Below, piece by piece: positions 23,523-35,046 of a DNA stretch of 64,000 nucleotides. The stretch is from Spirosoma endbachense (GTDB lineage: Bacteria > Bacteroidota > Bacteroidia > Cytophagales > Spirosomataceae). Location: contig NZ_CP045997.1 of the NCBI RefSeq assembly GCF_010233585.1, positions 2,270,692 to 2,334,691 on the forward strand, written 5' to 3'. The notes under the pieces were generated by a model, which saw only the letters and a list, made by a program, of their open reading frames with translations, searched no databases and was not told the DNA's origin. Position 1 is the first letter of the stretch; every line of letters begins with the position of its first letter. Position numbers and translations under genes: made by a program.

Positions 23523-24675
23523 AACGAATTGAACGATTACGGGAAGCCGGTCTGGGCTTTTTTCGCTGCCCGAGTCCACGGTTGCCGAATCCACGGCGGC
23601 CCCACCAGACGTAAAAGCCGGTGATGGGTAAACTGGCGCAAATCAGGCTGGCAATGAAATAGATAATCTTGGTCGGCATGTCGCCAATGGCCCCTACATG
23701 CAGGGCATAGTTGGTCCGACGGAGCCAGTCGGCAAAGTTCAGTTGGTCGATCTGAAGGGCCGTAGAAGGTAATTCCCTGAGTGTGTATTGATCGAGGTAA
23801 ATATCGCGCCAGGAGCCTTTGTCCATGTCCGTGCAAACGTAAATGGCTTCGGCGGGGCTGTCTGGAATCGAAACAATGATGGCATCTTTGTTATAAACGC
23901 CCAGTTCTTCGAGGCCATTTTTAAACGCTAAATCCACGTTTTTCAGGCCGTTTTTCAGGGCAACCTGCGTTGTATCGGATACGCCCCGTTGGTAAGGAGC
24001 CGGAGCGCCACCACCCGATGCGAGCCAGTAGACACCCTGGTTGACCCAGGGAAAGCCCATGATAAGGCCGGTGAGGGTAAGAACCAGCGCAATAATCAGC
24101 GAGTAAAAGCCCAGCACATTATGCAGGTCATAATTAAGTCGCTTGAATCGGGCCTTCCATTTGATGGAAAAGCTCTTTTCCCGGTTGCTTTTGTTCCATT
24201 TTTTGGGCCACCACAAAATCAGCCCGGTAATCAGTAATACGAAAAAAATCAGCGTCGCCCAGGATACGATCTGATGGCCAACCTTCCCTTCAACCCAAAG
24301 CCCGGTATGCCCTTCCAGAATGAAATGGAAGAAATCTTCATGATCGACGATGCCCGTAATTGCAGCCGTGTAGGGGTTGACAAAGATCAGTGAATCGGAA
24401 TCCAGTGTAACTTTAGCCGTCCGCCCATGCCCCTGGTACCAGATACTTGACATCGTTTTATCGGGGAAAGCGGTTTTCATTTTCTGCTGAATCGCCGACG
24501 GAGGCAGGTAGACGGCTTCGGCAGGCCGTTTCGCGTTTTGCCAGGGCTGGGTCAGTGGCTTAAGCTCCTGCTCGAAGACCAGAATACAGCCCGTGATCGA
24601 TACAATGAAAACAACGATGCCCGATGCCAGGCCAAGCCATAAGTGCAGCCAGGCATTGATTTTTTTCAGGATCAT
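23512..24675 (-). CDS. PepSY inner-membrane protein, XusC-like
   Basis: The protein has 387 residues. It begins M-I-L-K-K-I-N-A-W-L-H-L-W-L-G and has four membrane helices (SGIVVFIVSITGCILVF, VSWATLIFFVLLITGLILWW and others). The C-terminal tail is Arg/Gly-rich. In Bacteroides the order TBDR, DUF4374 lipoprotein, PepSY protein is XusA-XusB-XusC, used for uptake of foreign siderophores. The same order is seen here (28365, 25939, 24675), so this is the XusC position. Its 3' end overlaps the next receptor gene by 11 nt. Confidence 0.85.
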   Translation of the reverse strand: MILKKINAWLHLWLGLASGIVVFIVSITGCILVFEQELKPLTQPWQNAKRPAEAVYLPPSAIQQKMKTAFPDKTMSSIWYQGHGRTAKVTLDSDSLIFVNPYTAAITGIVDHEDFFHFILEGHTGLWVEGKVGHQIVSWATLIFFVLLITGLILWWPKKWNKSNREKSFSIKWKARFKRLNYDLHNVLGFYSLIIALVLTLTGLIMGFPWVNQGVYWLASGGGAPAPYQRGVSDTTQVALKNGLKNVDLAFKNGLEELGVYNKDAIIVSIPDSPAEAIYVCTDMDKGSWRDIYLDQYTLRELPSTALQIDQLNFADWLRRTNYALHVGAIGDMPTKIIYFIASLICASLPITGFYVWWGRRGFGNRGLGQRKKPRPASRNRSIRYEV

Positions 24676-24721
24676 GATAGCAAGGTTAAGTCGCCCGCTA
24701 CGTAGCGGGCGACCAGAACAA

Positions 24722-25939
24722 TTATTTCGTTTTTTCGAGACGAAGAATGTAGTTGATACCCCCCACGAACTCAGCGCCCTGGGTCAGCTTGTCGGCAGTT
24801 GGGTCGTATTCCCAGATGTAGTCTTTATCGGCCGCGTTGACGGCGATGTACGCTTTGCCATTTTCTACAACTACGGCCTGTACCATTCGTTCGCCTTTAT
24901 CGACAGGTAGAGCCAGTGTTTTAACAAAGGCACCGGTTTTAACATCGATCACCGAGAAGGAATGATCGGCATCAATCGACTCACCAGCTACACGTGTGCG
25001 AACAATGGCTTTGCCGTTGCCGACATACCACATGGCTGCGCCCATACCTTTGTTAACTTTAGACGAAAAATCGAAGTAGTACGACTGATCCAGCGTCGTG
25101 CTGCCACTCTTGATCCGGTAAACGGCTGAAGGTGATTTGTAATCGTAGTTATAAACCGGGTCGGTCATGAAGTAAATATCCCCGCCCTCATCCTGGAAAG
25201 AAGCGGGCGCATAGACGGTTGGCCCGCCGGGATTGGTCGAGCGTATATCCGAGATAGTACTTTCTACGGCCATTGTCGATGCATTAATGACCGCTACACT
25301 CAACTGCTGATAGACTGGCATAATTGGGTATGTCGAAAAATCGGATGACGCAAAGCTGTATCCCAGAAACAACTTACCGGCACGATATTCAGCAAAGCCC
25401 ATCGAATACGTATCGAAGCCCGTCGGAAATGCCTTTAAATCGAGCTTGCCCGTCGTAACGGTCATGTCGGCGACTTTAATGACCGCGTAACGGCCTTCAT
25501 TTTTACCCGCGTTTTCGCCCGTACCGAAAATGACCAGTGTTTGATCATCGACCCAGGCGTAGGAACTCCAGTTGAGGTACGTAAAGGGTACTTCTTTATC
25601 GACCACTACAGCACCATTGGCAACATGATACTTACCCAACCGGCCACTGCCAAAATTGGCATGGTAATAAAATCCATTTTTCTGGATGATGTCCTGCGCG
25701 TACACCTTACCGGTCATTTCAGCGCCGTTGCCTTGTAGGCTGATCGTACCAGAGGTCAGCGACGGAATATCGGCGATGTAATAGGCAATATTTGGCCAGG
25801 AGCCCACCGCCAGTACGGCAGAATAGGTGCCCGCTTCCTGCGGTGCTGGTGTATCATTGCTACTGCTACAGCCATTCAGGAGGAATGCGAGCAGGGCGAT
25901 CAGAATTGTTTGGACAGGGAAATTGAGAAATCGGTTCAT
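24722..25939 (-). CDS. DUF4374 surface lipoprotein, XusB-like
   Basis: The protein has 405 residues. The N-terminal lipoprotein signal carries the lipobox L-N-G-C (Cys about residue 24) followed by S-S-S-N-D. The rest is a repetitive beta structure likely to form a propeller (YSAVLAVGSWPNIAYYIAD, GRYAVIKVADMTVTTGKL, YIWEYDPTADKLTQG). DUF4374 members such as Bacteroides XusB bind ferric enterobactin at the cell surface and hand it to the XusA receptor. It is 30 nt from the receptor gene upstream and 46 nt from the PepSY gene downstream. Confidence 0.85.
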   Translation of the reverse strand: MNRFLNFPVQTILIALLAFLLNGCSSSNDTPAPQEAGTYSAVLAVGSWPNIAYYIADIPSLTSGTISLQGNGAEMTGKVYAQDIIQKNGFYYHANFGSGRLGKYHVANGAVVVDKEVPFTYLNWSSYAWVDDQTLVIFGTGENAGKNEGRYAVIKVADMTVTTGKLDLKAFPTGFDTYSMGFAEYRAGKLFLGYSFASSDFSTYPIMPVYQQLSVAVINASTMAVESTISDIRSTNPGGPTVYAPASFQDEGGDIYFMTDPVYNYDYKSPSAVYRIKSGSTTLDQSYYFDFSSKVNKGMGAAMWYVGNGKAIVRTRVAGESIDADHSFSVIDVKTGAFVKTLALPVDKGERMVQAVVVENGKAYIAVNAADKDYIWEYDPTADKLTQGAEFVGGINYILRLEKTK

Positions 25940-25968
25940 TGCATTGATTAGTATAAAACGAGAGGTTG

Positions 25969-28365
25969 TTATTTAAGAAAATAGCGGAGTTTCACCGAGA
26001 AAGCTCGTCCGGGTTTCTGCAGTCGGAAATTGTCGAAAGCCAGTGCATCGGTCAGGTTGCGGCACTCACCCGAAATGTTGTAGCGACCGTTAAGAAAGGA
26101 GTAGCTCAACGTAGCGTTGTGGATCAATTGATTGGGAATGCTCGATTTGCCGTTTACATTGCCAAAGGCCGCCCAGGTCAGATAGAACCAGTGTACATAC
26201 TGGGTGTACCAGTTAAATTGCAGCCGAGTGCCGTTGCCGAAAACGTTATTCTTGCCAAGGCTCAGATTGGCATTGCCGAAAAACCAGGGTTGGTTCGGAA
26301 TCTTGTTCTTGTAGGTTGCCTCGTAGACCGTGGAACTGGTGCTACCAAACTTGGTCATATTGACCGCACTTTGATACGTAGCATTGATGTTGAATGAAAG
26401 CAGATCGGCGTAGTCGTAGCGTAACTCGGCTTCAAAACCCGTAACCTGCACACTCGATTTATTCTCATTTTTTAGCGCCTTCGACCGTTGGTCGGGAACG
26501 GGATAGATGAAATCCTGCGCATCGCGGTAAAAGCCCGAAGCTTCGGCAAAAAAGCGGTGTTTGTTAAATCGTAAACCGTAATAACCACCCAGGTTGGCGT
26601 TGTAGCTGCTTTCAGGTTTGAGGTCAGGATTAGGCTGAACGTTCAGGCCATCGCCAAATACTTCTTCCACTTCCTGTAAGCGGTAAGCCCGTTCGAGCGA
26701 TAGTTTGATACCCAGATCAGGCAGAATTTTAAAGCGCGATGCCAGGCCATAGCCGTATTTGTCGAAATGGGTATTCAGGGTTTGATAGGCCAGGTCAACG
26801 TATTTTTTTCGCTCCAGCCCCAGACCGTAGTATTTGGCAAAAAAAGTGTTAGTCAGCCGTTTGTCCAGAAATTCCTGCTGATAGGCGAAACCAATGATCT
26901 GCTTGCTCATCAGGCCCGGCATATCGTCGCCCGAAACCAATAGCGAATTGTAGCTTTCGTTTTTGAGATGGTCGAGGGTATAGTTGAGGTTGAAGGAATG
27001 CTGCTCGTTCAGCACATAGCTCAGATTGGCCCGCATGAATGTTCGGGGGCGAATAATGTAGGAAAGCGACTTGATGCCACCCATTTCGCTGGCGGCTTTG
27101 GCCGTCCAGAAACCATCCCAGTAATATTGCCGGAAAAGTGTATCGGCGGTGATGTAGGTGTCTTTTGACCGCGATGCGAACAGATTCAGATCGAGTCCTT
27201 TCACCAGCAAATCATTCTTTTTGTAGCGTAGCGTAGCCGTTGAGGCTTTGCTTTTTCGGGTCACGTTGCCATATACAATGGTCTGCTCGAAACCAGTTTG
27301 TAAATCCTGCTGCCCTTCCGAATAGCCAAATCCTGCGTAGAAAACATCAGCCCAGCGTTTGTTGGAAATACCCACTTCCACCTGCCCCATGGCCGATTGG
27401 TAGTGATCGTGAAACCGAGGCACATCGGCCACCACAAAAGAAGCCCCTGTCAGATCGGTGATCTCGTTTCCGACTCGTTTGCCACCTTCCAGGATTTCCA
27501 CTCCTTTCATTTTGTAGGTATTGTCGGAGTAATTGTAGAAGCCGCTGGCTTTGAGGGTGATGCCCGTTGGTTTATGAACGTACTGCCCCGTCAGCGCCGA
27601 CCGATGCGTATTGAACGAACCGTAGCTATGGCTGACGTCCAGATAATTTTGCTGACGCTGGTTCGTGATTACGTTCACAGCTCCGCCCATCGCATCGGAA
27701 CCCAGTTGTACAGGCACGACGCCTTTGTAGACTTCAATCCGTTCGGCCAGATTAACAGGAATGCTATTGAGCGATACCGCACTACCCAGAATTTCCAGTG
27801 GCACACCGTCGATGAAATATTTGACCGCCTTGCCCGAAAGCCCATTGATTGAAAAATTGAAATTGGACCCCAGGCCGCCCTGCTCCCGAATACGTACGCC
27901 CGCGCTACGATTCAGAATCTGATTCAGATCGGCCGTCGTATTGGCAAATTGCTTAGTCTCGATGGCATTGACCGTAAAGGCCTGTTCTTTTACCTGCTGG
28001 ACCTCGGTCTTGCCAAAAACACTAACCTCATTCAGGTTTTGCTGATTCTCCTTTAAGCTGAAATTTGCCGTTTGGGACTGGCGGGACTTAATCGTAATTT
28101 CCTTGAAAACAGGCAGGTAACCAATGGCCGAACTACCAATGGTATAGTTGCCCGGCTTGATCGATACGAATGAATAGAAGCCGTTCGCATCGCAGGTGGT
28201 GCCGTAAGCTGTATTTTTAAGGGCGACGGTAGCGCCAGGAATGACTACACCCGATTCGGATTTGACATAACCCGAAAGCACCGCGACGCTTTGCCCGGAA
28301 GCCGCAAACGACAGTAGCCAGAGAGGAATTAGTAACTGAAAAAGTACAGATTTGACAGGTTGCAT
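25969..28365 (-). CDS. TonB-dependent receptor, XusA-like
   Basis: The protein has 798 residues from the ATG at 28363-28365 (MQPVKSVLFQLLIPLWLL, signal peptide to ASG). A CarboxypepD_reg-like domain (LSGYVKSESGVVIPGATVAL) is followed by a plug (LNQILNRSAGVRIREQGG, ERIEVYKGVVPVQLGSDAMG) and a barrel ending F-L-K. The preceding TTG (28395) in frame would add ten residues and spoil the signal peptide. It is the XusA position in the TBDR-DUF4374-PepSY order. No internal stops were seen. Confidence 0.9.
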   Translation of the reverse strand: MQPVKSVLFQLLIPLWLLSFAASGQSVAVLSGYVKSESGVVIPGATVALKNTAYGTTCDANGFYSFVSIKPGNYTIGSSAIGYLPVFKEITIKSRQSQTANFSLKENQQNLNEVSVFGKTEVQQVKEQAFTVNAIETKQFANTTADLNQILNRSAGVRIREQGGLGSNFNFSINGLSGKAVKYFIDGVPLEILGSAVSLNSIPVNLAERIEVYKGVVPVQLGSDAMGGAVNVITNQRQQNYLDVSHSYGSFNTHRSALTGQYVHKPTGITLKASGFYNYSDNTYKMKGVEILEGGKRVGNEITDLTGASFVVADVPRFHDHYQSAMGQVEVGISNKRWADVFYAGFGYSEGQQDLQTGFEQTIVYGNVTRKSKASTATLRYKKNDLLVKGLDLNLFASRSKDTYITADTLFRQYYWDGFWTAKAASEMGGIKSLSYIIRPRTFMRANLSYVLNEQHSFNLNYTLDHLKNESYNSLLVSGDDMPGLMSKQIIGFAYQQEFLDKRLTNTFFAKYYGLGLERKKYVDLAYQTLNTHFDKYGYGLASRFKILPDLGIKLSLERAYRLQEVEEVFGDGLNVQPNPDLKPESSYNANLGGYYGLRFNKHRFFAEASGFYRDAQDFIYPVPDQRSKALKNENKSSVQVTGFEAELRYDYADLLSFNINATYQSAVNMTKFGSTSSTVYEATYKNKIPNQPWFFGNANLSLGKNNVFGNGTRLQFNWYTQYVHWFYLTWAAFGNVNGKSSIPNQLIHNATLSYSFLNGRYNISGECRNLTDALAFDNFRLQKPGRAFSVKLRYFLK

Positions 28366-28397
28366 TGGTTGATATAAAAAGTAGCTATCAACCAATG
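28363..28397 (-). promoter_or_regulatory. Perfect 12-bp hairpin covering the XusA-like start codon
   Basis: CATTGGTTGATA (28363-28374) is exactly complementary to 28386-28397, with an 11-nt loop. On the transcript the ATG start codon forms the end of the 3' arm, so folding would hide it. Translational control is an inference. Confidence 0.5.
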
Positions 28398-28456
28398 AGT
28401 AGCGTCACCGCCAACTTCCCGAAGGTCAGGGAGAGAAAAAAGTTGAATTTTTTTTA

Positions 28457-28576
28457 GTCAAGGGTTCAGCCGGTCTAGCCGCAGGATGTAATCAACCTGG
28501 TCGTCGAAGTGGCGACCCTTACGTAGCGAACCGGCTTTAGGATCGTAAATCCAGATGTAGTTGCCACCTGAGTTGG
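28457..28576. repeat. 120-bp direct repeat, copy A (displaced 3' end of the DUF4374 gene)
   Basis: The sequence is identical base for base to 29718-29837. It encodes the last 39 residues and stop of the DUF4374 protein at 29719 but has no gene upstream of it. It begins right after an AT-rich stretch that looks like the original downstream flank (a run of T at 28448-28455), and ends next to the stop codon of the nuclease gene. Confidence 0.9.
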
Positions 28577-28577
28577 A

Positions 28578-29561
28578 TTACTCTAATAATCTTTTCAGTT
28601 CCTCTTCATTTGGAAGATACAACAGGTATTTGCTGGCAAAAATCTGTTTGTTGTCTTTAGGCAGGGTGATCTCTACTATGGCGTCTTTTTTGTCTTTGCA
28701 AAGGATGATACCAATAGTGGGCAATTCATCTTCTGTCTTAACGTACCGGTCGTAGTAATTCACATACATTTGCATCTGGCCTAAATCCTGATGTTTGAGT
28801 TTGCCGATTTTAAGGTCGATTAGCACAAAACACCTTAGTAAACGATTATAAAACACCAGATCTACCCGAAAATGCTCTTCCTCAAACGTGAATCGTACCT
28901 GTCGTCCTACAAACGTGAAGCCTTTGCCTAATTCCAATAAGAAATGTTCGAGCCTATCGATCAATGCTTGCTCTAATTGCGATTCGGAGTAAGTGCTTTG
29001 TTCGCTCATGTTCAAAAACTCAAGAACATAAGGGTCTTTGATCGCGTCCAGCGGTTTTTCTAATATTTGTCCGGTGAGCGCTAGGTCTTTTACCTTGTTT
29101 TTGTCTTTGGAGACGAGCAGCCTTTGGAATAATCCGGAGTTGATTTGCCTTTCCAGCTCACGCACGCTCCATTGGTTGTTTTCAGTTTCTATCTGGTAAA
29201 AGCTTCGTTCATCTTCGTTGTCGATACGCATCAAATGGATGTAATGCGTCCAGCTGAGACTTTGCGAAATCACCGATTTCGCATTCTTATAAGTGATATA
29301 AAACTTACGAATCAGTTCAAGATTTCTCCTCGAAAAACCCTTCCCAAATTCAGCATTAAGGTGTTTGGACAATTCGGTTAAAACATACGAGCCATAATCT
29401 GTCGTATGCTGGCCATGCTGTTCCTGCTCCACAATCTGTTCCCCCATTTCAAAATAGGTCTGGACCATAATGTGGTTGACCTGTTTGACAATGCCAGTTT
29501 GCGCCTTTAGCAGTAACTGTCTGATACTTTCAAAAAAGGATTTGTCGATTTGTATATTCAC
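28578..29561 (-). CDS. PDDEXK nuclease, DUF1016/YhcG-like
   Basis: The protein has 327 residues with a GTG start at 29559-29561. The N-terminal DUF1016_N-like helical region (SIRQLLLKAQTGIVKQVNHI, GSYVLTELSKHLNAEFGKGF, QSLSWTHYIHLMRI) is followed by a C-terminal PDDEXK core: FRVDLVFYNRLLRCFVLIDL then K-I-G, giving the D...D-x-K catalytic pattern. The family is common in bacteria, sometimes near type I restriction loci, and its role is not settled. Its stop codon (28578-28580) lies only 2 nt from repeat A. It has no obvious partner gene here. Confidence 0.85.
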   Translation of the reverse strand: MNIQIDKSFFESIRQLLLKAQTGIVKQVNHIMVQTYFEMGEQIVEQEQHGQHTTDYGSYVLTELSKHLNAEFGKGFSRRNLELIRKFYITYKNAKSVISQSLSWTHYIHLMRIDNEDERSFYQIETENNQWSVRELERQINSGLFQRLLVSKDKNKVKDLALTGQILEKPLDAIKDPYVLEFLNMSEQSTYSESQLEQALIDRLEHFLLELGKGFTFVGRQVRFTFEEEHFRVDLVFYNRLLRCFVLIDLKIGKLKHQDLGQMQMYVNYYDRYVKTEDELPTIGIILCKDKKDAIVEITLPKDNKQIFASKYLLYLPNEEELKRLLE

Positions 29562-29668
29562 TCACAATTCGAATTATGCGCTATTCGCTGGATTAAAGCG
29601 TTTGTCGTTGTCAATCTGCGTATTGTTTTGTTATACTATTGCCATAACATGCCAATTGACGCAATTTA

Positions 29669-29699
29669 AGTACAAAATGCGCATTACGAAATTTGTACT
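29669..29699 (-). promoter_or_regulatory. 8-bp inverted repeat in the nuclease upstream region
   Basis: AGTACAAA (29669-29676) and its complement TTTGTACT (29692-29699) are separated by 15 nt, about 108-138 nt before the GTG start. Possible operator for a self-regulated gene, or one end of the insert, which begins 19 nt further. No direct evidence for either. Confidence 0.35.
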
Positions 29700-29717
29700 A
29701 CTCGGCAATATTACCCT

Positions 29718-29837
29718 GTCAAGGGTTCAGCCGGTCTAGCCGCAGGATGTAATCAACCTGGTCGTCGAAGTGGCGACCCTTACGTAGCGAACCGGCTTTA
29801 GGATCGTAAATCCAGATGTAGTTGCCACCTGAGTTGG
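29718..29837. repeat. 120-bp direct repeat, copy B (3' end of intact DUF4374 gene)
   Basis: This is the exact partner of 28457-28576. It consists of one base beyond the stop codon plus the last 119 nt of the DUF4374 gene 29719-30939. Outside the repeat the two copies diverge at once on both sides. Confidence 0.9.
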
Positions 29838-30939
29838 GGTTGACAGCAATATAGACCAATCCCTTTTCAACCAGGATGCAATTGCGGGCCGTTCCTTTAT
29901 CGAGCGGGAGATCAAGACGGACCGTCGTTTGTTTGGCCAGATCGAGTACGTAAAAATCGAAATGCGGAACCAGGTAATGATCCTGCATCCCCTTAAAAAG
30001 GCCTTTCCGTTCGGTACGGACAATCGCTTTGTTATTCCCGATGTACCAGAATCCGTAACCGTGGTTATGAATGGGTGAAGCTGAGAGATTGAAAAAGTAA
30101 TCTGGATCGAGTGCTCCGTCTGCCTTATTGATGCGAAAAATGCCGGTCGGCTTTAACGCATTGTTGCCCAACGCAATACCCGGACAGGAAATAAAATAGA
30201 AATCACCCTTCTCGTCCGTAAAGAAATGTGACTGACGCGTATTGACGCCACCAGGGTAGGTCGAGCGGGTATCGGTAAAGGTGCGGATGGTTTTTAGACC
30301 GGGATAGGTTAACTCGGCTACGTACAACGTATCACTGGTGGTGTAGCGGTTTAAGTCGGATTTGTGATAGGTATACCCCAAATACAGGTTGCCGTTCAAA
30401 AACGTAGAGAAACCAATAGACATGGAGTTAAACCCGTTCGCTGGAGCCGGAAGGTCAATCACTCCCTCCATAGCCTTCATCGGATCAAAGGTAATTTTAG
30501 CGTACCGTGCTTTCGAATGTTGGGAGTCGTGCCCCATGATCAGTAGCGTGTCGCCGAGCCAGTTGTAGTTGTCAACACTCCAGGTACCCGTTAACTGAAT
30601 CGAGTCAGTTTGGGCGTACTGCTTGTTTATAATCGTGTTCCGTACGAATTGGCCGTTCTTCCAGCTGAGTCGGTAGTAGCTGTTGTTATGAACAATCAGT
30701 TCATAAAAAATTCGGGAAGGAGTTACTCGGGCGCCCTGAGCGATAGGGTCGATATGGCCAGAGTCAATCGTATCGGTTTGAACGATATACTCCGTTCCAT
30801 CCTTCATCATTACATAAAGGCTGTATTTTTTCTTTGCATTCCGCTCATCACCAGCTCTTTCTGGCGTACAGGTAATGATTTGACTTAAGCCAAAAAAAAG
30901 TAATACTGTAACGAAACAGTTCCTGGAAAACTCATTCAT
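29719..30939 (-). CDS. Second DUF4374 lipoprotein, XusB-like paralogue
   Basis: The protein has 406 residues. The signal peptide ends in a lipobox-like I-I-T-C (Cys about 24) followed by T-P-E-R. The beta-propeller-like body is alignable with the 24722 protein (GFNSMSIGFSTFLNGNLYLG versus GFDTYSMGFAEYRAGKLFLG; YIWIYDPKAGSLRKG versus YIWEYDPTADKLTQG). It probably binds a siderophore at the cell surface. It follows the FecR-like gene by 9 nt. Its last 119 nt are duplicated beyond the nuclease insert, so the protein sequence is unbroken. Confidence 0.85.
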   Translation of the reverse strand: MNEFSRNCFVTVLLFFGLSQIITCTPERAGDERNAKKKYSLYVMMKDGTEYIVQTDTIDSGHIDPIAQGARVTPSRIFYELIVHNNSYYRLSWKNGQFVRNTIINKQYAQTDSIQLTGTWSVDNYNWLGDTLLIMGHDSQHSKARYAKITFDPMKAMEGVIDLPAPANGFNSMSIGFSTFLNGNLYLGYTYHKSDLNRYTTSDTLYVAELTYPGLKTIRTFTDTRSTYPGGVNTRQSHFFTDEKGDFYFISCPGIALGNNALKPTGIFRINKADGALDPDYFFNLSASPIHNHGYGFWYIGNNKAIVRTERKGLFKGMQDHYLVPHFDFYVLDLAKQTTVRLDLPLDKGTARNCILVEKGLVYIAVNPNSGGNYIWIYDPKAGSLRKGRHFDDQVDYILRLDRLNP

Positions 30940-30948
30940 ACCCTCTTC

Positions 30949-31620
30949 TCAGATATTGAACTGCCGCATAAGGTGACGCTGCATCAAAGGTGGCAGACCG
31001 GAGAGAGAACCTTGTGAAAGGATAATGACCTCGTTGTCATTGGATGAATTGCCGTAGTTCAGCGCAATGTAATTCTGGCCTTTTTTTAAGGTCATTTTCT
31101 CGATTGCTTTGTCGGGTCGGGTGCAGCTACCCTGGATTGTTAGTTCAAGATCGCGTTTGGGGTTGATCATCACGGCACCGCAAAATTCAATACGTCCCGT
31201 TTCATTGTTGATTTCAACATTGCTTTTGGGGCCAATAGATAGCGAATAGGCGCTTTCCTGAAGGTCTTGATTGGTGGTTGCCGATACGTTATTGACGACA
31301 ATCACACCGGAATCAGTAGCCTGATTTTTAACGAAATAAGCGCTAAGCCCGGCCAGCGCAAGCAGGAGAATAGCAGCGGCCTGCCGCCAGAATGGACTGA
31401 AAAAAAACTGCACAGTGGGTTTTCGCCGGGAGGGAAGCACCGTCGATATTTCTTCCCACATATCGTCCTGAATCCTGGTCTTGCTTTCGCCGAAGGGAAA
31501 CGGTAACGTAGGTTCGGTGGTGAATTCATCATCGAAAAGCCAGGCCTCTACCGCCTTAATTTCTTCGGGAGAACAGTGGCCGTTGTGGTATTTTTCGATA
31601 AGTTCCTTACTAATCTTCAT
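30949..31620 (-). CDS. FecR-like anti-sigma/sensor protein, short
   Basis: The protein has 223 residues. The N-terminal cytoplasmic part (KISKELIEKYHNGHCSPEEI, then K-A-V-E-A-W-L) is the usual start of Bacteroidetes FecR proteins. One transmembrane helix follows (QAAAILLLALAGLSAYFV, about 90-107), then a periplasmic beta-rich part of about 110 residues. Typical FecR proteins are 300-350 residues with a FecR plus DUF4974 domain, so this one lacks the usual C-terminal portion. It pairs with the sigma factor upstream, 77 nt away. It senses receptor occupancy in the classical model. Confidence 0.75.
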   Translation of the reverse strand: MKISKELIEKYHNGHCSPEEIKAVEAWLFDDEFTTEPTLPFPFGESKTRIQDDMWEEISTVLPSRRKPTVQFFFSPFWRQAAAILLLALAGLSAYFVKNQATDSGVIVVNNVSATTNQDLQESAYSLSIGPKSNVEINNETGRIEFCGAVMINPKRDLELTIQGSCTRPDKAIEKMTLKKGQNYIALNYGNSSNDNEVIILSQGSLSGLPPLMQRHLMRQFNI

Positions 31621-31697
31621 GAATGCGCTTTCGGCAAAATAGCTGCTTTAAGTAAAAGTAGCACAAATCAGGAACAACCGTAAGTCGTGGAGATAAA

Positions 31698-32237
31698 CTA
31701 GATGAAGTATTCAGAAAGATTAGTTTTCAGCGTTGCCAGGGCGCGGGTAATGTGGTACTCGACGGCCCGTTCCGAAATCAAAAGCATTGAAGCGATTTCC
31801 TTATTGGATAATCCCTGCTCGCGGCTCATTTTAAACACATTCTGACACTGGGCGGGTAAAGTATCAACAAGATGACTGACCTTTTCTTTCAAGCTATTAT
31901 AGAGTACCTCGTTTTCGGTACTATTAGCAGCTGCACACTCATAAGCCACTGATTTTGCCGTGTGTTCCTGCCGAATCTTACTGTTTCGCAGGTATTCAAA
32001 AACCTTGAACTTAGCCGAGCGAAGTAAATACCGTTCTACCGATGTTGTGATTTCCAGCTCATCGCGCCGTTCCCAAAGCGACTTGAAAATATCCTGCACC
32101 ATTCCTTTGGCAGCTTCAACATCGCGTAAATTACTGTAACAAACGTTAAACACCTGCTCCCAATACTGCAAATACATCTCCCGAAACGATTGTTCATCGA
32201 TTCTAATAGGATTGGTACAAAGTATCTTTTCAGGCAT
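31698..32237 (-). CDS. ECF sigma factor, FecI-like
   Basis: The protein has 179 residues from the ATG at 32237 (MPEKILCTNPIRIDEQSF); the frame is open 11 codons further upstream. Region 2 (YWEQVFNVCYSNLRDVEAAK, Q-D-I-F-K-S-L-W) and region 4 (LPAQCQNVFKMSREQGLSNK, then EIASMLLISERAVEYHI) are both present. It heads the operon FecI-like, FecR-like, DUF4374, [nuclease], TBDR, DUF4374, PepSY, OM receptor. It presumably drives that operon once a siderophore occupies the receptor. Site 3 lies 40 nt upstream. Confidence 0.9.
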   Translation of the reverse strand: MPEKILCTNPIRIDEQSFREMYLQYWEQVFNVCYSNLRDVEAAKGMVQDIFKSLWERRDELEITTSVERYLLRSAKFKVFEYLRNSKIRQEHTAKSVAYECAAANSTENEVLYNSLKEKVSHLVDTLPAQCQNVFKMSREQGLSNKEIASMLLISERAVEYHITRALATLKTNLSEYFI

Positions 32238-32277
32238 ACAACTAGAGAATGCGCAAAGATAATCTGCCACAATTGTT

Positions 32278-32300
32278 TTATGTAGAATAATTCTAAATAA
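32278..32300 (-). promoter_or_regulatory. Candidate Fur-type operator (site 3)
   Basis: This is the best of the three palindromes: 10-nt arms TTATGTAGAA and TTCTAAATAA match at 9 of 10 when one is reversed and complemented, around TAA. It lies 40 nt upstream of the FecI-like start. The presence of the same motif before two receptor genes supports iron control. Confidence 0.6.
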
Positions 32301-32633
32301 ATTCTTATCAACTCATTAATGTCCTGGTTGCCGGCATACCAGGACGTTTTGAAATTGGCCAGGACTTTAATTGTATGCTTCTGAGTCAGGTTTTAAATTT
32401 CTTTTGCATCGGCAAACGTAGTAGTCAGTGGTTTTCCATCATTACGTTTGTTTTTCTAGGTGTGCAGGCACTTACAATGTGATGTGTCATTGTCCAAAAG
32501 AAGAAACAGCATCCAGAGTCAAAGAAGGCGATATGATTTTAACATGCCTTTGTATATTGTGGATAAACTCGAAAATTTGGGCGAGTCTATCCTGATTATT
32601 TAGAAAAATCAACCATGATGTGCTTCTAAATCT
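32301..32633. other. Intergenic region upstream of the sigma factor
   Basis: It holds one hairpin at 32321-32345 (GTCCTGGT / ACCAGGAC, 9-nt loop) and otherwise nothing recognised. It probably contains the promoter of the minus-strand FecI-like operon. Confidence 0.4.
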
Positions 32634-33116
32634 GGATCAATTCAAAAACTTGTGGGGCATTGTTTTTTTAGGTTTGTGCGTTTCCACTAGTTTTAGAGAG
32701 TTTCTTGCCCATCATTAGTTTCTGTTACCCGAGTTTATTCTGGAGAATTTGAATTGACTTCTATCGATCGGTAGGATGCTGTCTTGTTAGATACATATTG
32801 AGGAGAAAAATACCGATCACGACAAATCCCCATAAGAAGAATCTACTCTCCAAAGGCTTCTTTTCCACCAGTATGGTTCACGCTTTTCCACTCCGAGGCC
32901 ACCAGGTTTTCTTCACATTAATCGTCGTCGATGGCCACCGTGGCGCGGCTCAATACCCAAACCGGCAAAGTCGTTTATCGAGACTGGACCCATGTTTCTG
33001 ATGGGGCGCGGATGATCAGCGAGTTCCCCGCTTTTTTAAAAGCCATCAGCAGCATCGGCTGTCCGACAATACCAATCCGACTAGCATCTGATCCATTGGC
33101 GGATTTTATGGGGTAG
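32634..33116 (+). mobile_element. Second ISAon1-like remnant (left end and N-terminal ORF only)
   Basis: The left end at 32634 (GGATCAATTC, then AAAACTTGTGG) matches the terminal repeat of the element at 171. The following leader (TTTTAGGTTTGTG-type) and coding pieces (NLLSKGFFSTSMVH in one frame, T-G-K-V-V-Y-R-D-W-T and GARMISEFPAFLKAIS in another) correspond to the ISAon1 N-terminal-region protein. Multiple frameshifts and stops occur, and no transposase ORF or right end was found. Confidence 0.65.
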
Positions 33117-33855
33117 ATTGCCGTGATTAATGCCTAATTGAAATATGTTGACCGAAACAGCAGCATTCGTATTCCGCTTATCCAGGTTGTACCAATTCCC
33201 GTTCCTTATGTCGGCTTTTAGGACGACATTGGTCGCCAGGCTCTTGAAGACCGAAAATATTTCCACCAAGAATTCAGGAAACATTTCGGCGTTAATCCCA
33301 GTGAGTATTGCAGCAAAGTAATGAACGCAACGAATTGTCAGTAATATAAACTGGATTTCCTACCTCGCGATCAGCTCCGTTTGGCGATATTTACTCAAAT
33401 CTTACCCGCGAACGACTTCTGAATAAGTCCCAGTCTGGGCGTGAATAGTTAATGAATCTTGTGGCTTTTTATCCAGAGTGAAGTTTAGGTAAAGGGTGTG
33501 GGCAAATTGAATGAGTCGTATTATTTTTCAAACTTATCCCTTTCGCCCTACGACCTCTAGCCAATGTCTCCCACTTCCGGGTTGATGGAAAGTTCGCCCT
33601 ATCCGTTAGCCCAGATCAAAAGGCCCCTTTTATAACCTTCCCCTAAAATTTTAACGGCTTTATCACTGGACTTATCCGCCAAATCAGTTTTTAAGAAAAT
33701 TATTTCTCAATAACATACAATTTTAGGTTCTTAGCGTTATAATTGTATGTAAAACAATAATTGCCTTAACAAGTATATTAGTTCATCAATAAACAAACGA
33801 CTTGCTGCGCTCAGCTGACCAGTTACCAGCCAAGCGGTGCGGTTTGCCAGACCCT
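33117..33855. other. Intergenic region, possibly decayed genes, not identified
   Basis: Minus-strand frames contain short protein-like runs separated by stops (for example DKSSDKAVKILGEGYKRGLL at about 33605-33680, and a stretch reading LGLTPKCFLNS at about 33260-33300). I could not assign either to a family. The 3' part must hold the promoter of the aromatic-catabolism cluster. Confidence 0.3.
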
Positions 33856-35046
33856 ATGCCATTCTATCATACGCTCGGCCAGATTCCCCCTAAACGGCAT
33901 ACGCAGTTTGAGAAAACTGCCCCGTCTGGAAGCTCTTCGGGGTTTTATTACGAGCAATTGTTCGGTACGATAGGTTTCGAGGGAATGTCGTCACTGTTGT
34001 ATCACGTTCATCGGCCAACGATGGTTCGTGAAATGCTCGACAGCGTCGATGTCACCCCAAAAGTTGCAGTGGGGAAAAATATGCTGTCGCGCAAACTGAT
34101 TGGCTTTAAGATTGAACCCGCTAATGATTTTCTGGATAGCCGGGTTCCCCTGCTGATCAACAATGACCTGATTTTCGGCCTGGCAGCGCCCCGACAGTCG
34201 ATGACAGACTACTTCTACAAAAACGCCGATTCCGACGAAATGCTGTTCGTGCATCGGGGATCAGGAAAACTCCGGACTCTATTTGGCTCAATCCCATTCC
34301 AATACGGTGACTACCTGGTTATTCCGCGCGGAACCATTTACCAGATCGAATTTGATACAGCAGATCTTGAACAGCATCAGCCCAGGCTGCTGTATGTTGA
34401 ATCTCATTCCCCGATTTATACGCCTAAACGATACCGAAACCAATTCGGGCAATTGCTCGAACATTCGCCTTTCTGCGAGCGCGATATCGTTCGGCCAGCC
34501 AACCTGGAAACACATGACGAAACGGGCGATTTCCTGATAAAAATCAAAAAACAAGGTTCGCTTCACTCGCTGGTTTACGCCAGCCATCCGTTCGATGTCG
34601 TGGGATGGGATGGTTATAACTTTCCGTATAGTTTTTCTATGTTAAATTTTGAACCCATAACGGGCCGCGTACATCAGCCACCGCCTGTGCATCAAACGTT
34701 TCAGACCGATTCGTTCGTGGTTTGCTCGTTCGTTCCGCGTCTGTACGATTATCACCCAAAGGCTATTCCGGCCCCCTACAACCACTCCAATATTGACTCC
34801 GATGAAGTCATTTATTACGTGGATGGCGATTTTATGTCGCGCAACGACATCGCACCGGGTCACATTACGCTACATCCGGGCGGTATTCCACACGGACCAG
34901 CGCCGGGAGCCATGGAACGCAGCATCGGCAAGAAAGAAACGCAGGAATACGCCGTTATGGTCGACACATTTCGCCCGTTGATGCTCACCGAACAGGCGAT
35001 GAAACTTGATGACGGGACCTATTATAAATCATGGCTGGACCTGTAG
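33856..35046 (+). CDS. hmgA: Homogentisate 1,2-dioxygenase
   Basis: The protein has 396 residues from the ATG at 33856 (MPFYHTLGQIPPKRH); a TTG start at 33802 is in frame but unlikely. It opens the ring of homogentisate to maleylacetoacetate using Fe2+. The cupin-like fold shows the expected features FVHRGSGKLRTLFG and YGDYLVIPRGTIYQIE in the first half. The iron-site half has S-D-E-V-I-Y-Y-V and HITLHPGGIPHGPAPGA (His/Glu ligands). It is the first gene of the Phe/Tyr degradation cluster, 13 nt before hppD. Confidence 0.93.
   Translation: MPFYHTLGQIPPKRHTQFEKTAPSGSSSGFYYEQLFGTIGFEGMSSLLYHVHRPTMVREMLDSVDVTPKVAVGKNMLSRKLIGFKIEPANDFLDSRVPLLINNDLIFGLAAPRQSMTDYFYKNADSDEMLFVHRGSGKLRTLFGSIPFQYGDYLVIPRGTIYQIEFDTADLEQHQPRLLYVESHSPIYTPKRYRNQFGQLLEHSPFCERDIVRPANLETHDETGDFLIKIKKQGSLHSLVYASHPFDVVGWDGYNFPYSFSMLNFEPITGRVHQPPPVHQTFQTDSFVVCSFVPRLYDYHPKAIPAPYNHSNIDSDEVIYYVDGDFMSRNDIAPGHITLHPGGIPHGPAPGAMERSIGKKETQEYAVMVDTFRPLMLTEQAMKLDDGTYYKSWLDL

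Follow-up and report, generated by a model that had tools for sequence, protein, structure and literature searches.

Long, variable target duplications have been reported at insertions of restriction genes (excerpts of PMC1643837, PMC3031569, and PMC3154945, citing Nobusato et al. 2000), and fungal mitochondria carry mobile ORFs in which an endonuclease ORF lies between a complete gene and a displaced copy of that gene's end (excerpts of PMC3630166 and PMC7315562). Homology-facilitated illegitimate recombination is described in bacteria in an excerpt of PMC3240628 and is invoked in one of PMC5361080 for Vibrio genes and 3' ends shifted back. As far as these excerpts go, long target duplications at restriction gene insertions are already known, and the titles and abstract openings among the matches listed contained no description of duplications flanking DUF1016 genes.

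We analyzed a 64,000-nucleotide stretch of Spirosoma endbachense DNA (the window), in which a solitary gene for a predicted nuclease stands between two copies of a DUF4374 gene end, one (T) within the complete DUF4374 gene and the other (T') behind the nuclease gene (Table 1). As at the excerpted restriction gene insertions, the direct repeats are long, a transposase is unseen, and the neighbors are kept; the differences are that the window insert is a solitary DUF1016 nuclease, with seven restriction protein queries giving no match in the surrounding 10 kb (window positions 24001 to 34000, E ≤ 1e-5), and that the two copies have different flanks, the flank of T being matched in a relative, G003. 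Like the excerpted fungal mobile ORFs, the locus has a displaced gene-end copy behind the nuclease ORF, here 1 nt after its stop codon, but the fungal nucleases belong to another family than the one predicted here; and whereas the fungal elements combine a foreign attached end with a native displaced one, the window copies are identical and, at a comparable locus (L282), gene body and attached end go together. With homology-facilitated illegitimate recombination, as excerpted, the locus would share one homologous anchor, one non-homologous joint, and an old gene end behind a new gene; the unit here, however, is gene-sized and recurrent for one nuclease subfamily, and no donor was found, none of the 140 DUF1016 loci searched containing a DUF4374 gene.

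Judged by its sequence, the 327-aa protein is a predicted YhcG/DUF1016 nuclease with both family domains, YhcG_C (PF06250, residues 172 to 325, E = 1.9e-58) and DUF1016_N (PF17761, residues 13 to 147, E = 1.5e-41, both from Pfam), and three further genes of this family are present in the same genome. The protein strongly matches the PADLOC models of the candidate defense gene PDC-S02 (best E = 6.7e-139), a label of presumed defense that is silent on how the gene moves.

Layout of the locus and its counterparts in the genus

The flanking segments agree at 120 of 120 positions and consist of the last 119 nt of the DUF4374 gene plus one base, leaving the host gene complete, as the original prediction had it. 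They are the only two copies genome-wide, since no third was found in the whole 10,326,072-base single-contig genome (G000) at E ≤ 0.001, and a chance repeat is ruled out, about 10^-58 such exact 120-bp pairs being expected in random sequence. The nuclease gene is the sole substantial gene between the repeats, and no recombinase or transposase was detected among 10 window proteins tested with Pfam, which agrees with what had been claimed on both points; the distance between the nuclease stop codon and the repeat edge, given earlier as 2 nt, is in fact a single base (28577). On the other side, about 130 bp of extra DNA lie upstream of the nuclease start, between the nuclease and a short segment, L, that is discussed below. 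The G+C content of the inserted stretch is 40%, versus 47 to 49% in its neighbors. A second DUF4374 gene (405 aa) is located at window positions 24722 to 25939, beyond the TonB gene, and both DUF4374 genes are conserved in G003.

Table 1. Features of the nuclease locus, in window coordinates
Feature	Position	Strand	Basis
TonB-dependent receptor gene, other side of insert	25969..28395	-	PF07715, PF00593; syntenic in G003
T', second copy of the DUF4374 3' end (last 119 nt + one base)	28457..28576	-	120/120 identity to 29718-29837; TonB-side homology with G003 stops at 28453
Solitary predicted YhcG/DUF1016 nuclease gene, 327 aa, GTG start	28578..29561	-	PF06250 + PF17761; PADLOC PDC-S02
DNA upstream of nuclease, presumed part of insert	29562..29691	no strand	Without G003 homology; nine related DUF1016 loci match the DNA of the unit within the gene only
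Segment L, probable old DUF4374 3' flank	29692..29717	no strand	Aligns with G003 DUF4374 3' flank, 18/27 columns
T, copy within the complete DUF4374 gene	29718..29837	-	Repeat match; G003 homology crosses both sides
Complete DUF4374 gene, 406 aa	29719..30939	-	PF14298, E = 1.1e-9; G003 ortholog 82% identical

The locus was searched for in 36 genomes of the genus, the genome of origin included, and is intact in one relative only, G003, which has the DUF4374 and TonB genes, one copy of T, and no nuclease gene there. The gap between these two genes is filled in G003 by 4.3 kb of other genes (L107:6678-10986), which we take to be short-chain dehydrogenase-, AraC-, and acyltransferase-like. For this reason G003 is not a perfect empty site. 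The gap, filled by unrelated genes in G003, may be prone to insertion. In another genome, G016, the DUF4374 gene is broken, has one T copy, and has a different neighbor.

The homology that the window shares with G003 ends, toward TonB, at the very edge of T', whereas toward DUF4374 it continues past T up to 29692. Segment L, at the end of this homology, is identical to the 3' flank of the G003 DUF4374 gene in 18 of 27 columns, a short similarity with p about 2e-5; since it resembles the G003 sequence after the same gene, it probably belongs to the old DUF4374 3' flank rather than to the insert. Because G003 homology runs past T and stops at the edge of T', T appears to stand in its old context and T' to be the new or displaced copy. 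The DNA behind the two copies is unlike, G003-like sequence following T and TonB-side DNA following T' at once, and, as the sequence reads, such different flanks are not what a one-step duplication of a single target would predict. Possibly a short match at the T' end, TTGAC, helped to guide a joint. The arrangement in G003, with both neighbors, a single segment copy, and no nuclease, supports the earlier reading of the nuclease gene at this locus as a probable insertion.

Flanking duplications at other DUF1016 genes

Other loci were screened for the same scar, defined as direct repeats on both sides of a gene, within 900-bp flanks, with a DNA score of at least 30 or protein similarity at E < 1e-5; these thresholds were fixed after the first repeat tables had been inspected, and thresholds from 20 to 60 were tabulated. 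As nearest loci we took the 80 top-scoring hits of the window protein in public genomes, which is not a random sample; 71 of them were counted, together with 41 of 43 loci of the host family, 31 of 48 from further genomes of the phylum, and 23 of 30 each for RhuM and Fic genes; loci were dropped when a flank was shorter than 300 bp, when they were duplicates, or when a clear match or ORF was lacking. The loci themselves supplied the control ORFs, among which there may be other mobile genes; one candidate is L010:1730-3184, which has a 167-nt repeat of its own (99% identical), and L081:11409-12053 likewise has a long one (334 nt at 91%).

Flanking repeats were found at 16 of the 71 nearest DUF1016 relatives and at 9 of 289 control ORFs (p = 5e-7), and tight repeats at 11/71 and 2/289, respectively (p = 5e-7). 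A strict count, from which five loci (L012, L013, L027, L028, and L040) were excluded by judgement as having dispersed-type or non-genic repeats, although a further repeat copy within the locus was seen for L028 only, leaves 11/71 (p = 3e-4 versus all controls). The scar was also present at 5 of the 31 phylum genes (p = 0.007) and at 1 of the 41 host-family genes, the window's own gene excluded. Thus, the prediction that other DUF1016 genes would have flanking duplications stands for the close subfamily and falls short for the host family. A search of E. coli with one query (L048) gave no match.

These counts bear on the idea that the nuclease was inserted without any duplication and that T' arose later, by an unrelated tandem duplication plus deletion. 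Segment L, which separates T from the nuclease but has no counterpart next to T', fits such a history; we nevertheless consider it improbable, as scars recur at close DUF1016 genes far beyond the control rate just given and T' starts only 1 nt from the nuclease stop codon.

The scar was found at 19 of 94 genes whose products are at least 53% identical to the window protein and at 3 of 49 below that level. On a quick tree of 144 proteins, 17 of them labeled as scarred (the window among them, and six with dispersed-type or non-genic repeats left unlabeled), the label changes 16 times versus a shuffled mean of 16.4, and for this reason the scar seems scattered rather than inherited as a block. 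Flanking repeats were also found at 4 of the 23 RhuM genes (p = 0.01) and at none of the 23 Fic genes, and the scar may mark several kinds of solitary genes. The RhuM loci with repeats, recovered without DUF1016 as the query, are L210, L215, L216, and L221; at L210, the repeat is 88 nt long at 95% identity, and its copies stand 30 bp upstream and 11 bp downstream of the gene.

Duplicated segments and the history of the two copies

At L282, the end of a type ISP restriction gene is duplicated in a layout like that of the window, with the complete gene first, then the nuclease, and then the old 3' end. At L033, it is the 3' end of an RNA methyltransferase-like gene that is duplicated; at L018 and L050, the 5' end of a DNA methylase gene; and at L022, the end of one gene together with the start of the next, both genes being complete. 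The DUF1016 genes of L018 and L050 (Nitrospirota and Planctomycetota) precede the same kind of DNA methylase gene, the start of which is copied on the far side; the methylase call for L018 comes from Pfam, and we presume the gene to be a type III mod. In the Firmicutes loci L049 and L061, the DUF1016 stretches are flanked by gene starts that we take to be uvrB-like. The L049 start lies 2.4 kb upstream, thus outside the 900-bp count, and neither copy at L061 is part of a complete gene in the stretch; such starts may be a hot spot at which genes insert.

The 3' ends of genes often serve as attachment sites for integrases, which restore the gene, so the window locus could in principle be the remnant of an integrase-borne element that used the DUF4374 3' end in this way. 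Repeats at other DUF1016 genes, however, also occur at 5' ends, within genes, and in the spaces between them. We rejected this origin as most improbable, given that no recombinase was detected among the 10 window proteins tested and that the stretch between the repeats has no other substantial gene.

At the Psychroflexus curvus locus (L076; L275 is the same locus), the start of a small gene is present on either side of the nuclease, this arrangement being preceded by a gene that we take to be trehalose-phosphate-synthase-like, and the nuclease reading frame is broken. Among 20 relatives with the neighbor gene, 19 were fetched; 8 of these have exactly one segment copy and no nuclease in the stretch, and 11 have no match to the segment. 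This is a clean empty site for one DUF1016 insertion. Of 117 sites, 12 differ between the two P. curvus copies, and comparison of each copy with the nearest insert-free species gives 11 and 10 differences, which amounts to species-level divergence. No empty site was obtained for L282, the gene being absent from 10 other genomes of its family. L174 was dropped as a clean case, because its repeat also occurs elsewhere and both relatives with a close ortholog of the neighbor gene have other flanks.

At loci with a coding T, most differences between the copies fall at third codon positions: 23 of 28 at L022 (22 synonymous and 3 other codons), 35 of 49 at L061 (31 and 8), 22 of 36 at L282 (19 and 13), 7 of 8 at L049 (7 and 1), and 19 of 35 at L060 (13 and 12). 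The bias is weak at L076 (7/12, p = 0.07), L033 and L018 have too few differences, and the L050 copy is decayed, with a stop codon. Because of this third-position excess, the copies at several loci had probably both been under selection before they came together, and an origin in two genomes is suggested. For the window, where T and T' are identical, it is the different DNA following them that points to two alleles. One homolog resembles both the L282 gene body and its attached end, which leaves the copy behind the nuclease as the odd one out. An earlier hint of a chimera with a foreign attached end disappeared when windows of the protein were compared, body and end being alike outside one variable region. 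L282 would therefore be compatible with an incoming gene that arrived together with the nuclease and was joined into a resident one; the strict fungal pattern does not fit.

The same observations bear on insertion with a long target duplication, in which a transposition-like process would cleave the target at ends 120 bp apart, insert the gene, and fill in the ends, so that T and T' would be true duplicates. The identity of T and T', the one-copy empty sites in Psychroflexus, and the long, variable duplications reported in the excerpts on restriction gene insertions all suit this explanation; the different flanks of T and T', the resemblance of the copies at several other loci to separate alleles, and the failure to see either shared ends or a transposase speak against it, and we regard it as rather doubtful.

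The moving unit and candidate mechanisms

The extent of the moving unit was compared in 48 pairs of DUF1016 genes that align over more than 600 bp with an identity of at least 80%. In 20 of them, only the gene and short flanks are common to the fetched stretches, amounting to at most 498 bp before the gene (typically 60 to 260) and at most 119 bp after it (typically 5 to 50); nine of these gene-only pairs are combinations of five Spirosoma-type units. In the remaining 28 pairs, the common flanks are longer or extra blocks are present, and three of these pairs are one locus fetched twice. From the 20 gene-only pairs it appears that the DUF1016 gene often moves almost alone, in a unit that ends near the nuclease stop codon. 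At L174, L178, and L181, a helix-turn-helix-like second gene travels with it. No conserved element ends were found, the DNA of the window unit matching nine related loci within the gene only.

The sequence CGGACGTTTNNCTGAAC, which forms the left border of Spirosoma-type DUF1016 units and also of other gene blocks, occurs at 36 places in 17 of the 36 genus genomes (for instance, G000:C1:9440677-9440693), against one for the reversed control. It was rejected as a terminus of DUF1016 units, 26 of 30 places inspected having no DUF1016 gene behind it, and because this dispersed sequence also occurs without DUF1016, the upstream start of the five Spirosoma-type units is not called an element terminus. 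A restriction gene lies within 2.5 kb of 21 of 143 DUF1016 loci in a limited search, and on a Cetobacterium plasmid the DUF1016 gene is located between hsdM and hsdS.

The explanation that we tentatively favor, at somewhat less than an even chance, is a one-sided, homology-anchored integration of a gene-sized unit, by which the old gene end was pushed behind the nuclease. The unit would comprise the nuclease and a short upstream stretch and would end at about its own stop codon. The incoming DNA, from a putative donor, would carry a DUF4374 gene end with the nuclease behind it; this end would pair with the resident DUF4374 gene through shared sequence, and the end at the nuclease stop codon would be joined by an illegitimate, homology-free joint into the resident gene 119 nt before its stop codon. 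The host gene would thus be complete thanks to the incoming end, with its old end displaced behind the nuclease as T'. Duplicating outcomes would presumably survive because neighbors stay intact, and hosts may retain the nuclease gene for defense. The repeat, the order of the parts, the one-copy relative without the nuclease, the recurrence of the scar, and gene-sized homology among DUF1016 genes at unrelated sites are direct observations. In favor of such an integration are the different DNA following T and T', the allele-like divergence of the copies at other DUF1016 loci, Psychroflexus among them, and the window-like layout of L282, and no special enzyme seems to be needed, because RhuM genes bear the scar too. 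Counting against it are the failure to find a donor, the identity of T and T' in the window together with the shortness of the L similarity, the rarity of the scar among Fic genes (0/23) and host-family DUF1016 genes (1/41), the weak codon-position bias at L076, and the decayed copy at L050; moreover, it gives no account of how the nuclease first came beside a given gene.

Alternatively, the element may be homing-like, with the nuclease cutting the DUF4374 gene near its 3' end and being copied in by break repair along with a replacement end. A putative break supplied by the nuclease is possible and would resemble the situation in fungal mitochondrial mobile ORFs, the layout of which, as excerpted in PMC3630166, is similar. 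The predicted nuclease with both of its domains, the enrichment of the scar at close DUF1016 genes, and the gene-sized homology in 20 of 48 pairs could be understood in this way, but the scar is seen at RhuM genes too and is absent from most host-family DUF1016 genes, the repeats lie at unrelated genes and positions among which no common site was noticed, and the attached end of L282, unlike that of the fungal case, belongs with its gene body. Homing at the window locus is thus unlikely in our view. The broader proposal that close DUF1016 relatives are self-moving single-gene chromosomal elements, with a nuclease that cuts into a host gene near one end and enters by being copied along with a working replacement of that end, seems to us equally hard to favor. 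Because the unit is outlined, the scar is countable, and the Psychroflexus empty sites are clean, the rival explanations make different predictions for sister strains.

The movement of solitary defense genes without transposases or integrases has so far been poorly explained. If the close DUF1016 relatives are self-moving, they would enter useful genes without harm and would be a bacterial counterpart of the fungal mitochondrial mobile ORFs, an anti-phage nuclease doubling as a means of spread. Should the nuclease drive the process, DUF1016 proteins would gain a role beyond presumed phage defense; should it not be the driver, the scar would mark one-sided gene capture in general, at RhuM genes as well.
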